Shown here: one piece after another, positions 44,601 through 50,601 of the stretch
How the letters are laid out: the number at the start of each line of letters is the position of its first letter
How positions within the stretch are numbered: position 1 is the first letter of the stretch
Source: Pseudozyma flocculosa PF-1
Taxonomy: Eukaryota > Basidiomycota > Ustilaginomycetes > Ustilaginales > Ustilaginaceae
Direction of reading: 5' to 3'
NCBI RefSeq assembly: GCF_000417875.1
Contig: NW_006920880.1
Span: forward strand, 502,260 to 566,259
DNA length: 64,000 nt
Notes under the pieces: model-generated
What the model was told of the DNA's origin: nothing
Database searches by the model: none
What the model saw: only the letters and a program-made list of their open reading frames with translations
Made by a program: the position numbers and the translations under genes

Positions 44601-45267
44601 ATCTATCTGGTCCCACCGGTAGAAATCTTGCTGCGTCACATACATAGACTAGAGGCCGAGTGCAGGACGATGGACCGCTGCGCACTTCCTGTTTCCTGCT
44701 CCCTCTCCTTCTATCTCCACGCCCGGGTGGTGCGCAGCAGTTCCTGGTAGGTGCGCCCGTCGGCAGGCACCGCTTTCCGACCCCACCGTGTCACGGCAAC
44801 GACCAAAGCGACGAAAGACGAGTGCAGTCCAGTAGGATGCGGGCTGGCATCGCTGGCAGACGGGACGAATGCCTCTGAAGTTGGCGCGCGCAGAGAACGA
44901 GACAGACGGGGGGCTCGGGGCACACTCGGCCGTCGGACCCGCAATCTCCTCGAGGTCTGGCGATGGCGAATGTCCGACAGCATATAGAGGGGCCTGGCTG
45001 TCTCATCCCGCTTACTCGCCTTTCGGGACGCCGCGTCGGAATCGCGATCCGATCTCGAGCTTCGCTCCGAAGACACCCAACTCGGGCTGTGCCTCGCCTG
45101 CCTGGCCTGGCCTGGCCTGGCCTGGCTTGCAGCGCTGCGTCACGACCGACGTCGGATGTATGGGCCCCCTCCCTCTGCCTTCTACATTCGTGTTCGTGCA
45201 CCCAGCCTGGCCATCGATATGAGCCCTCTCTGGATGGCGCGACCGCGGCACTCGGTCAGGCGTCTTG
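41683..45267. other. Gene-free region between Zn2Cys6 gene and phosphatase-HbrB gene
   Basis: About 3.6 kb with no supportable gene. It carries the Zn2Cys6 promoter (a weak CTATACT at about 41870), several GTATGTAC/TGTACTGT-type motifs (42750-42860, 43310, 43530), a GGGTAAGGGTAAGGGTAGG run (43547-43566) and CCTGGCCTGGCCTGGCCTGG (45104-45124). A CATATAG at about 44980 has no plus-strand gene after it. Confidence 0.4.
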
Positions 45268-48200
45268 TCACCGCTCCGTCTGCTGGATGGATGCGGCACC
45301 GTTCCGCTCTGCGCTGCCGCCCGTCGCCGAAGCCGAAGACGCTTGCTCCGACTGCCCCGCACTACGAGGCGCATTATTGGCATGCTGTCGAGCCTCTGCG
45401 TCCTGCCGCCTGGTCATGTCCGACGGGTCTTCCGCTGGTGTCGCGGCGCTACCTCCGCCGTCGCCGTTCGCTCTCGCGGCCCCGTCCTTCAGCTCTTCCG
45501 CCCCGCCATCCGCCTGGCCATCCGCATCGCCTTCCGACCCTCCTCTGCGCGTCAGTTGCATCTGGCTGGGCTCCGCACCGTTCGCCGGCCGAGCGTCGTC
45601 CGTGGACCCTTCGTCACTCAGGCGCCGCCCGTGATCAGCGGGATTGGCCCCTTCGCACTGCACTGCCTGCGTACTGCGCGTCCTCGGAGCGGCGGTGCGC
45701 GACGAATCCTCGCTGCGCCTGTGTGCCGAGAGGTCGAGATCCTTGGCAAGATCCTTGGCCGGGGGCGTCGGCGGAGGTGGTGGCTGGCCCGGCGTCGATG
45801 GCTCGGTCGACAGCGTGGGCGAGCGCAGCGCGGTGAGGTAGTCGTCTTCCGAAAGCTCCTGGCCGAACCGGTTGATCGTCGTCTGTGGCACCGAGCGCAG
45901 AGTGAGCGGCGTCCCCGTCAACGAGCCGCCCCCTGCGATCGAGCCCAGGCTCAGGCTGTCCGAGATCGAGCCGACGCCGTGCTTCCTCGCCTTCTGCGCC
46001 ATCCAGCCGCGCCGATTGGAGCGCTGCTGCGTCGGCGAAGACGACCGCACGCCGAGCCCAAAGTCGCCCACGCCGCCGCCGTCCTTGGCCTTGCCCGCGG
46101 CCTTGCTGCCCATCCTCAGCGCCCGCACCAGACCGTCGACGTGGTTCTGCGCTTCGTCGTCGCTGACGACGCTGGCGAGGATGCTCGTCATCTGGAGCAG
46201 CCGCAGGTAGACCTGCTTCGACCCCTCGCCCGCCATGGCGTCGTCGGTGGAGCAAAAGCCCGGATCGACCTCGCTGATGTGCGAAAAGAGGTACGAGAGC
46301 CGCTCGTACAGCGGCAGCACCACCCGGTCCCGGAACACGGCGAGCAGGATGCGGCGCACGTTGATCTTGTCGGTCCGCAGCGCGCCCGCCATGCTGGGCG
46401 ACGTGGCCGCCTGGGCTGCAGCGGCGTTGGTGGCACGCATGTTGCTGGCGAGGCTCTGCAGGACCGGGTCGGTCTGGAAGGGGAGGAAGCACCCCTGGAT
46501 GTAGGGGAGCACCTGGCCCAGGAAAAACGTCCAGATCTCGGCCAGGCGCACCAGCAGCCTGACATCGTCGAGGCCCATCAGCTTCGAGTTGAGCGTCAGG
46601 GTCCCGCTTGCCGCCAGCGAGGTGAGGTCGTACGAGAGAGTATCGAGCGCGCGTGCGGGCCCGCGGTCCAGCGTCCGGCGGACGTGCTGGCTGACCAGCT
46701 CGTTGAGATCCTCTATGCTGGTCCGGAGGCCTTCGCCGTTGAAGAGCGGCAGCACTCGCACGCAGATGCTCTGCCACACGTCCGACGTGGCACCAGATGC
46801 GCTGAGGAAGCCCGCCGCTGACGCGTTGGGCGAGCCGGCGGGCATGCCAATGCCGGAACCGGAAGCGCCTCCGCCAATGTAGGGGTTGAAGAGCATGCTG
46901 CCAGAGGCGCCGGCCTGCCCGGCGTGGAGTGCGCCGAGGCTCGAGCTCGCATGCGGCATGCCCGCGCGCTCCGACAGCGTCGACGGGTTCGGCGTCCCGG
47001 CGGTCGACGGATGACCGCTGTGGCCGCCTCCCGATGTCGTCGTGCCGCCACTGCCACTGCCAGCGCCGCCGATGCCGCTGACACCGCCGCCGGACAGCCC
47101 CTGGCTTTCCGTGCCGGCAAGCATCTGGGCCGCGCCGGCCCTTTCCAGCTCGCGCGCCATCATCTTGACGTCGTACGCGTTGAGGCTTCGCGCCGAGGCC
47201 GGTGTAGCGTTGACGGAGCGAGCTCCGGACGATGTGGCGAGCCCTGCGCCGGGTGTCGAAGGAGGTGGCAGGGTGGCGTTCGACGCAGAGGTCGACAGCG
47301 TCGCATTCGAGGCGATCGACGCCATGGTGGCACTCGCAGGCAGGGTCGAGCTGCCGCCGGCGCCCGACGAAGCGGCACCGGCGCCAGCCTGCCCGACACT
47401 GCTGGGCGTTGGACTGCCCGTCGCAGCTGCCGCGCCAGCAGGCAGGCCACCTCCGAGGGCATGCGCCGCGCCGCTGCCAGGTGTCTGCATGGCAAAGGCA
47501 CGCAGGTGCTCGACCTGGTTCTGGCACAGGATCCGGACAAAGGTGAGTTTCGAGGATGCTTGCACTTCCGAAGCGGACAGAGCCGCTCGCGAGGCATCGC
47601 CGTGCTGCCCATCGGCGCCGTCGGCGAGAGAGTCTCCCGAGGTCGTTGCTTGCCCTCCACCGTCGGCGCGAGCGTCGGCGCGAGCGTCGGCGCGAGCGTC
47701 TGCGCCCGCTGCTTGCGGGGTCGTTGGTGTCGGCTGGGGCGATGGGCGGCTCCCCCCTGGACCGACCACGGGCACTGCGAGCTCCAGTCGGCTCCAGCCC
47801 GTGTTTTCGAGCCTGACGCGGCGGTACGTCAGGCGCGGATCCGCCCAGGGGCTGTTTGGGGTCTGGTCATGGAGAGACATAAAGACTCTGAGCAGCTGTC
47901 GCGAGAGAAACACGAGTGGGTAAGAAGGCAAGGGCTGCGTCAGCGTTGCACCACGCAGTGAAGGCTTTCGACCTCGGCCGATGTCACGAGCCCACCATGG
48001 TACGCGCTACTTACCTCTGCGATGGCGATGCCGTGGGCGACGATGCAGATGTGCGGCACTTCTGCAGCGCTCGTCGACGACGACGTCGACGTCTTTGGGC
48101 CCTGCTTGCGCAACGCCTCGACGCGCGGCAGCACAAACTGCCTCACCGCCTTGGCGATGCGCGAGTTGACGTCCTCGAGCGACTCGCCGTCGGGGAAGCG

Positions 48201-48670
48201 AAAGGTGCGCGCATCTTCTGCCTGAGCGTGCGAGGTCCACTCTGGTCGCAAGCGGGGTTGCGGGATACACGCAAGGGCGAGGCAGGGGCAGATCAGAAAT
48301 CAGCGTCTCGGGATGCAGTGTGGGCGGGTACGGGCGCGCACAGGGCGAGGCACTCACCGGCAGCGGCCCAGCTCTTTCCCTCTGCCTGGCCAAAGTTGAG
48401 CTCGCGGAGCGACTTGGACTGGACGAGGGGCGGGGGAGGGATGGAGCGGTTTGCCTGGAGGATCTCCTCTGCCGTCATGGCGGCGCGGCGCAGGTCGGAC
48501 GAGTAGATTGCGGTGAGGGGCACGTTGGAAAACGCCTGGCCGAGGGCCATTGCCTGGTTGACGCCGGCCGACGAGAGGGGCGTGTCCCTGAAGCCGGCCC
48601 AGATGGCCTGGGCGTTGTCCTGCGACTCTCCATGCCTGACCAGAGTGACGAGCAGGCTGCTCAGCTGCAT
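45268..48670 (-). CDS. Histidine phosphatase (phosphoglycerate-mutase superfamily) fused in frame to HbrB-like TORC2 subunit
   Basis: Exons 48358-48670, 48015-48241 and 45268-47895; introns 48242-48357 (GTGAGT...CCAG) and 47896-48014 (GTAAGT...GACAG); 1055 residues. Residues 1-222 are a histidine phosphatase: LVTLVRHGESQDNA (catalytic His 13), SSDLRRAAMTAEEIL, SKSLRELNFGQAEG, FPDGESLEDVNSRI, CIVAHGIAIAE (His 174), then in exon 3 YRRVRLENTGWSRLELAVP, a usual C-terminal motif; LTFVRILCQNQVEHLRAF (about 300) ends it. A Gly/Ala/Ser linker follows. Residues about 550-780 match HbrB (Bit61/PRR5 family): VRVLPLFNGEGLRTSIEDLN, VRRILLAVFRDRVVLPLYER, LLQMTSILASV. There is no stop between the parts and the phase-0 junction is exact. 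Alternatively two genes overlap, HbrB starting at an internal Met such as 47880. Confidence 0.75.
47661..47696 (-). repeat. 12-bp tandem repeat encoding ADAR units
   Basis: Three perfect CGTCGGCGCGAG units (plus-strand reading) with a degenerate fourth, encoding ADARADARADAR in the linker of the phosphatase-HbrB protein. The unit length is a multiple of three, so copy-number change keeps the frame. Confidence 0.9.
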
Positions 48671-49689
48671 GCTGCGGGGTTGTGACAGAGTTCGGCGAGG
48701 AGGAAGGCGGGGTGTCCGCTCGTCGGTGCCTTGGATGGCGCAGTCGTCCGGGTCGTGAGGAGATCGTCAATCGGGGGCCAAAGAGAAAGAGAGAGAGAGA
48801 GAGAGGTGTCCAGGAGCGATCCAACAAACAGCGGGTGGCACGCGGCGGCCAGAAAGGACCCGCTCGTCAAATGGAGGAGCCGGTCGGTGGTGGTGGAAGA
48901 AGAAGAGTACTACGTGGAATGGCCGCCGGGCGTTGAAGGAAGAAAGCAAGCAAGCAAGAAAGGCTGCCTGCAGCGGCGGCAAGTCGAACGAGAAGAGCGC
49001 GGGAAAGCAAGCAAGCAAGCAAGCAAGCAAGGTCGAGGGTGCAGGCTAGGCAAAGGCGGCTCACCAGGGTGAGGGCAGGACCCCTCTCCGCCGCGCAGGC
49101 CGGGCACCTAGCCTGCAACCTCGCCTCGCCATCCTGCACCTGCGCCCGGACAGGGCTGCACCCTCGCCACACTCCCGATTTCCGAGCCTTTGCCCGTCGG
49201 GCGGTGTACGTACGTGTGCTTTTTTGGGGGGTCAGCGCTCCCGTCGCCCGCGAGCCAGCCGGCACCTCCACCGAAGCGAGCCGGAAGGGGCCGCTGGCAT
49301 GACGTGCCAGGCGCAGCTGCTCTGCGAGATGGCCTGGCCAGCAAGTTGGGCGGCAGGCGGCCGGCCTGCTGCTGGCCTGCCACACCAAAGCAAAGGAGAG
49401 CGCGGGCAGCGGGAAAGCCGCCCGCCCGGCGTTTCTTCCAACTCGGCTCGAGCCACCGCTCTCTTTCTCGGCGTTCGAGGGGCAAAGCCAGCCAGCATCA
49501 CCTCACCCCTCGCCGCTCACCGCTCGCTCGTCGCCACCATCGCATCACCCTCACCTTCATCATCCTCTCTTCCCCGAAACATCAGCTCAAGCAAGCAGCC
49601 GCCCCCATAGTCCACCTCCGCGACCCCGCATCCAGCACCACCACCACCACCGCCGCCTTCAACCCCAAACCCCCCTTGTTACCACCATC
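48671..49689. promoter_or_regulatory. Divergent promoter region between phosphatase-HbrB and Ran-like genes
   Basis: About 1 kb, no gene. It contains a (GA)n tract at 48789-48805, AAGC tetranucleotide repeats at about 48945-48960 and 49005-49031, and CACCACCACCACCACCGCC just before the Ran-like start (49640-49658). Purine/pyrimidine asymmetric tracts of this type often mark fungal promoters. Confidence 0.45.
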
Positions 49690-50601
49690 ATGACGTCCAA
49701 AGAGTTCAAGGTGGTCCTCGCCGGCCCCTTTGGCGTCGGCAAGACGGCCTTTGCCACCCGCCTCCGCTCCGCAAAGTCGGGCGCTAAGCAGGTCAAGGCG
49801 CTCAAGACGACCCAGTACCCCGTAAAGCTCCACACCTCGGCCGGCCAGGTCACCCTCACCCTCTACGACACCAACCTCCACGCAAAGGGCGGCATCCCCG
49901 ACGACGGCTTCTTCCGCATCGCAGACGCCGGCGTCGTCTTCTTCGACCTCACAAACGAGGAGAGCTACAAGGCCATGGAGGAGTGGTACGACGCCCTCCA
50001 AAAGGCAAACGGCCGAAAGGGCAGCGAGCCCCTCCCCATCATCGTCGTCGGCACAAAGGCCGACGACATCAAGGTGCGCCCCCCGCTCCCCGGTCCGGGC
50101 ATCGCTCCTCGGCCCCGGCTGACCACTTTCCGCTCTTGCCCCCCGACTCGCCTCGCCTCGCAGGGCCGAGAGCTCAAGCCCGACCAGATCGAGTTCCCCC
50201 GCAAAAAGGAGCACCCGTACCGCGAAATCTCCGCCAAGGCCAAGTGGGTATCGCTCCGCATCTTCGCGGCGAGCTGACCTCGAGTGCCCCTGGTTGCTGA
50301 CGTCGTGTCTCGCCCTCATTTCTTCTGCCTGGCCTCTCTGTCTGCAGCTACGGCATCAAGGACCTCTACCTCGAGATCTGCAAGGGTCTCCTCGGCGACG
50401 GCGTCCAGCTCACCGACGTCGTTGAGCTCGAGAAGCCCGAGATCGACAACGTGAGCCCGTCGCAGCCAGACCGCCGCTGTGGCCCCCACTCTGGTGCGCG
50501 ATGCATGCTCACCTTGCCTGTTTGCTCTATTACCTCGCCGCCGCCAGATCGACGAGGATGCGCTCGCCAAGCTCTACGAGGAGTACGAGAAGGCGGCCTA
50601 G
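49690..50601 (+). CDS. Divergent Ran/Gsp1-like small GTPase
   Basis: Ras-superfamily protein closest to Ran by eye. Exons 49690-50073, 50164-50243, 50348-50450, 50548-50601; introns 50074-50163, 50244-50347, 50451-50547; 206 residues. P-loop GPFGVGKT is intact; G4 is GTKADD (NKxD-like); G5 is REISAKA. The segment IEFPRKKEHPYREISAKANY mirrors Ran's FHRKKNLQYYDISAKSNY, and the tail LGDGVQLTDVVELEKPEI mirrors Ran's region before its acidic end. The switch II motif is altered: Ran's WDTAGQEKFG reads YDTNLHAKGG, so the catalytic Gln and preceding Gly are missing. The C-terminal DEDDDL of true Ran is absent, ending in EEYEKAA, and no prenylation Cys is present. A canonical Gsp1 elsewhere in the genome is expected. 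Role unknown. Confidence 0.82.

Follow-up and report, generated by a model that had tools for sequence, protein, structure and literature searches.

We have analysed a gene on the reverse strand of a 64,000-nucleotide stretch of the Pseudozyma flocculosa PF-1 genome (hereafter the window, in which positions are counted), whose three exons encode a protein of 1055 residues. It carries a histidine phosphatase domain of the TIGAR type and, behind a long linker, an HbrB domain, as found in the Bit61/HbrB/PRR5 (Protor) subunits of target of rapamycin complex 2 (TORC2). The fusion is almost certainly real, i.e., one gene gives one polypeptide. Overall, it is likely that the phosphatase is tethered by the only HbrB subunit found and is brought to TORC2 in this way. 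An enzyme-bearing TORC2 subunit is a surprising combination of known parts; apart from the kinase itself, no subunit of TORC2 is known to us to carry an enzyme domain. In the open-access literature (subscription papers being mostly outside this scope), no description of an HbrB-phosphatase fusion or of an enzyme-bearing TORC2 subunit was found among the titles and abstract beginnings listed; two listed papers in which PRR5, TIGAR, and mTORC2 occur look unrelated.

The domain search suggested in a preliminary description of this DNA finds His_Phos_1 (PF00300) at residues 9–214 (E 2.8e-32, 112.4 bits against a cut-off of 21.7) and HbrB (PF08539) at residues 550–713 (E 1.6e-48, 165.3 bits against a cut-off of 22.7). 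The single-protein fusion proposed there is borne out by the homologues: among the 39 HbrB matches listed, 27 carry both domains, while the other 12 are without the phosphatase. This search with the HbrB part covered ~5.8 billion proteins and the best 7989 candidates, and unfused smut relatives may have escaped it. A second search gave nine matches and adds the partial records P0041, P0043, P0044, and P0045, which run from phosphatase to HbrB; the last three are unbroken from the phosphatase to the HbrB start. The HbrB fragment P0042 and P0045, whose longest contigs are equal in length, may be two halves of one gene. No match was obtained in the phage collection.

Conservation extends through the join. 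Relative to the Thecaphora frezii protein, the phosphatase core (1–227) is 84% identical, an insert (228–293) 32%, the last phosphatase strand (294–318) 76%, the linker parts 319–440, 441–470, and 471–548 are 71%, 45%, and 45% identical, and the HbrB region (549–760) is 82% identical. The mean identities over the window protein and 26 fused rows (P0025, whose start is missing, was excluded) follow the same order of regions with 0.75, 0.29, 0.66, then 0.51, 0.39, and 0.36 for the three linker parts, 0.68 for HbrB, and 0.37 for the C-terminal tail. That is, the phosphatase core is even more conserved than HbrB.

The length of the open frame, which we considered as proof of the fusion, was dropped, as long frames are common in the window: its GC content is 65.5%, and it holds 14 stop-to-stop frames of at least 500 codons, the frame of the fusion gene among them. 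Others of these are no doubt true exons. A different reverse-strand frame overlapping the gene is open for 743 codons (45635–47866), and a forward frame of 532 codons (45223–46821) also overlaps it; both are apparently by-products of GC-rich coding sequence. Under such conditions, two tandem genes could have been merged by gene prediction, through a chance open frame or a stop hidden by a sequencing error, and merged-looking records do exist: the Phenoliferia HbrB record P0036 also carries PF00230, and the Apophysomyces record P0035 continues into an unrelated-looking protein. Against this, the same domain order recurs in 27 records from many contigs, the linker part 319–440 keeps its high identity to T. 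frezii, and P0043, P0044, and P0045 cross the join without a break. The linker has no strong splice signal either: residues 228–548 contain neither a GTRNGT donor nor a branch-plus-acceptor pattern (only strong signals being counted), and a hidden intron or internal stop there was rejected on this basis. Since the fusion is conserved, an origin from merged tandem genes is very unlikely, and the overlapping tandem genes without a stop codon, which the preliminary description had offered as its alternative, give way to a fused order that the homologues conserve. It is the conservation of the protein, and not the length of the frame, that puts the fusion beyond chance.

Judged from the sequence records, the fusion is a trait of a lineage and not a peculiarity of the P. 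flocculosa genome. Fourteen of the 27 fused records bear a species name, and all 14 belong to Ustilaginomycotina, spanning five orders: Thecaphora frezii, Violaceomyces palustris, Testicularia cyperi, Ustilago trichophora, Melanopsichium pennsylvanicum, Pseudozyma hubeiensis (two records), Kalmanozyma brasiliensis, Sporisorium scitamineum, S. graminicola, S. reilianum, Ceraceosorus bombacis, C. guamensis, and Tilletiaria anomala. The lineages looked up are Georgefischeriales for Tilletiaria, Ceraceosorales for Ceraceosorus, Urocystidales for Thecaphora, Violaceomycetales for Violaceomyces, and Ustilaginales for S. reilianum and Testicularia, all in Ustilaginomycotina; the other named fused species presumably belong there too. 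Sister species with two separate genes, named beforehand as evidence that would speak against a fusion, were not seen among the matches listed, where every one of these 14 records is fused. The 12 unfused matches comprise 11 from red-yeast relatives (one looked up, in Pucciniomycotina, and ten which we take to be such) and one from Apophysomyces. Among the matches listed, word-limited searches gave no record named Malassezia, Tilletia, or Exobasidium, and no U. maydis orthologue was met by name. The preliminary description knew of no HbrB protein with such a phosphatase. We have likewise found no published account in the open-access listings, but the fusion is not unique to this genome, and the fused proteins are already in databases, labelled 'phosphoglycerate mutase' or 'BIT61'.

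The first of these labels finds no support in the mutase models. For the phosphatase half, pgm_1 (39.6 bits, cut-off 81.7) and GpmB (64.9 bits, cut-off 261) stay under their curated cut-offs, though these models were built for bacteria and archaea, and all 18 families listed likewise scored below their own. The family, the residues, and the alpha/beta fold place the domain in branch 1 of the histidine phosphatase superfamily, and its closest relative by both sequence and structure is TIGAR, with phosphoserine phosphatase tied in VIA. It shares the catalytic residues of TIGAR, its top match, at ~26–28% identity in structural alignments, but differs in having a variable insert before the last strand and HbrB attached. 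The motif ENTGWSRLEL, which the preliminary description gave as the C-terminal motif of the phosphatase, is indeed present at residue 210; the domain, however, does not end there. Its last strand (VRILCQNQVEHL, from residue 300) follows ~80 residues further on, beyond the insert; it lies within the TIGAR structural alignments, which extend to 305–306, and is common to standalone fungal phosphatases.

The phosphatase part is very likely active, as its residues suggest. R12, H13, and R62 are present in all 27 rows covering the region, and E90 and H174 in all 28; we take these (the RH pair, the arginine, the glutamate, and the second histidine) to be catalytic from what holds in the histidine phosphatase superfamily. 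Fused enzymes can turn regulatory, and the domain could instead be a non-catalytic scaffold or ligand sensor, a view to which the two Ceraceosorus records lend something, both having RHA where the others have RHG. As none of the five catalytic residues varies in any row that covers the region, we regard such a loss of catalysis as quite improbable.

Standalone fungal TIGAR-like phosphatases, i.e., the Mycena record P0053, the ascomycete-type P0056, P0077, and P0086, and a paralogue in the host genome (C2:727k), share the core and the N...HL last strand of the fused form. Where the latter continues with linker and HbrB, however, they have a short tail that bears a QxxhxxFF-like motif. In a tree of 49 rows, for which 9 of the 28 fused rows were used, the fused phosphatases form one group (97/96), to which P0053 stands closest (94/78, not starred); many long branches in this tree were flagged. 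The paralogue that the host keeps separately is 29% identical to the fused domain and has such a tail. It was located at L011 479–1948 on the forward strand (G000:C2:726778–728247), and its tail reads RQTKLQGFF, while that of P0086 reads QQTVDSYF. To us, this motif looks like a PIP box (PCNA-interacting peptide), by which PCNA is bound, and it would be a hint that the standalone phosphatases are tied to DNA replication or repair. A search with the phosphatase alone drew on the best 7998 candidates and gave at least 1057 matches, and among the best 120 of these no clear standalone smut orthologue was found. The ten best are smut-like by similarity; of them, P0043–P0045 extend to the HbrB start and P0046 into the fused-type linker, P0047 and P0049–P0052 depart from the alignment at the site of intron 2, and P0048 ends before the second catalytic histidine.

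The HbrB half matches the yeast BIT61 chain of a TORC2 structure (9rsq_E) with E 2.2e-5 as a single sequence and E 1.1e-11 as a profile. It shares PF08539 with Bit61/HbrB/PRR5, to which the fused protein adds an N-terminal histidine phosphatase absent in the 12 unfused homologues listed. When the whole model was used for a fold search, the phosphatase dominated the matches, and HbrB was therefore folded separately; modelled alone, it gives a helical fold with a mean predicted local distance difference test score (pLDDT) of 87.5, and Bit61 was absent among the matches listed for this model. In the genome search, the fusion gene is the single HbrB locus, and there is one match each for RICTOR_N and SIN1_PH. 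From the homology to BIT61, the single HbrB locus, and the genes for Rictor and Sin1 in this genome, we infer that the fused protein is quite probably the HbrB subunit physically present in TORC2.

In U. maydis, of the same subphylum, Rictor and Sin1 are present as well, and deletion of rct1 or sin1 affects growth slightly, according to PMC9704768. The main text of that paper names Rictor, Sin1, and Lst8 as subunits, and the words Bit61 and HbrB are absent from it. With TORC2 dispensable in U. maydis, the HbrB part might no longer serve TORC2 signalling and might act as a targeting tag that places a metabolic phosphatase in the cell, and the better conservation of the phosphatase core would suit this. 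On the other hand, HbrB was found in a single copy, with a strong family score and a confident fold, which makes a mere tag improbable.

The linker, taken as ~230 residues between the phosphatase (1 to ~318) and HbrB, would be flexible with one conserved helix, and most of it is of low confidence in the model of the homologue P0002. Its motif RSLxxYDxxMMxRELERAGA occurs in 27 of the 28 fused rows (P0025 is without it) and in four partial records, and is a possible docking element. No clear counterpart was seen in the 12 unfused HbrB proteins. The motif might be an old HbrB trait from before the fusion, as it looks similar, by eye, to the Apophysomyces record P0035; a motif profile scores E 0.087 against this record, compared with 0.52 for the best of 240 shuffles, and the other 11 score under the best shuffle.

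Such a long, loosely modelled linker also raises the case that the fusion is translated but its parts become separate, by proteolysis in the linker or by an HbrB-only form starting at Met426; TORC2 would then not retain the phosphatase. Met426 is kept in 26 of 28 rows, but the other positions of its motif are conserved too, and its position in the helix, not a use as start codon, may be what preserves it; only 2 of 28 rows have Met316. That one gene is kept in all 14 named relatives would also argue for a need of the joined form. We consider a separation of the two parts unlikely, though somewhat less so than a mere targeting role.

Based on the above analyses, TORC2 in this lineage most likely receives a tethered, competent TIGAR-type phosphatase through the only HbrB subunit known there, and TORC2 in smuts and their relatives probably carries its own built-in phosphatase. 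According to PMC5700991, tagged Bit61 has served to purify yeast TORC2, and its density at Finger2 is ill-defined. By analogy, the HbrB domain would dock on TORC2 in the manner of yeast Bit61, and the phosphatase, on its ~230-residue tether, would sit at the outside of the complex, where it could reach a phosphorylated target at its edge. If this target is a sugar bisphosphate, TORC2 would be a local site of metabolic control; alternatively, the target may be a phosphoprotein, either of TORC2 or of its AGC-kinase effector. Tentatively, the TORC2 of Ustilaginomycotina might be a combined kinase-phosphatase machine, in which glycolytic metabolites or the phosphorylation of its own substrates are linked to its output.

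A fusion kept over five orders is a hint from evolution that the TIGAR-type phosphatase and TORC2 share a task, and the poorly understood role of HbrB/PRR5 becomes testable through the substrate of the attached enzyme. The fusion is also a tangible difference in structure that can be compared with the reported rewiring of TOR output in U. maydis, where the Ypk-like kinase Aga1 shifts with TORC1 and not with TORC2 (PMC9704768). As a conjecture, the phosphatase-bearing TORC2 could belong to this rewiring.

The layout of the gene is given in Table 1. The coordinates, motifs, phase-0 GTAAGT...ACAG intron, and 876-codon third exon of the preliminary description are correct to the base. Between the upstream stop and the start codon at 48670 there is no other ATG in frame, and most homologues start at or near the same place, with P0028 extended and P0025 without a start. 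Exons 1 and 2 sum to 313 + 227 = 540 nucleotides, and therefore intron 2 is in phase 0. Exon 3 is open throughout (875 residues and the stop), inside a stop-to-stop frame of 912 codons. In the spliced protein, RHGES starts at residue 12, VAHGIAI at 172, ENTGWS at 210, and DVWQSICVRV, the HbrB start, at 552. The position of intron 2 looks conserved across relatives, since the phosphatase fragments P0047 and P0049–P0052 depart from the alignment exactly at its site (AIAEV...).

Table 1. Features of the fusion gene and their positions in the window.
Feature	Position	Strand	Basis
Whole gene, TIGAR-type histidine phosphatase-HbrB fusion, 1055 aa, 3 exons	45268..48670	-	Spliced translation, Pfam, conserved fusion
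Exon 1; RHG catalytic motif, residues 12-14, at 48637-48629; E90 of LRE	48358..48670	-	Translation, alignment
Intron 1, GTGAGT...CAG, phase 1	48242..48357	-	Fused homologues align without break across it
Exon 2; AHG motif, second catalytic His 174, codons 173-175 at 48038-48030	48015..48241	-	
Intron 2, GTAAGT...ACAG, phase 0	47896..48014	-	
Exon 3: phosphatase end, linker, HbrB, C-terminal tail, stop	45268..47895	-	
Variable insert within phosphatase, residues 228-293	47557..47754	-	Mean pairwise identity 0.29; low confidence in homologue's model
Last phosphatase strand, residues 294-318, VRILCQNQVEHLR	47482..47556	-	Identity 0.66; strand in P0002 model
Conserved linker motif, residues 411-440	47116..47205	-	Helix 418-431 in P0002 model
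HbrB domain, Pfam PF08539, residues 550-713	46297..46788	-	Pfam, helical fold, BIT61 match
C-terminal tail, residues 761-1055, mostly variable	45271..46155	-	Identity 0.37, occupancy 0.63; low pLDDT in homologue's model

The divergently transcribed neighbour, at 49675–50274 on the forward strand of the window, carries a Ras-family GTPase domain (PF00071, E 9.4e-14).
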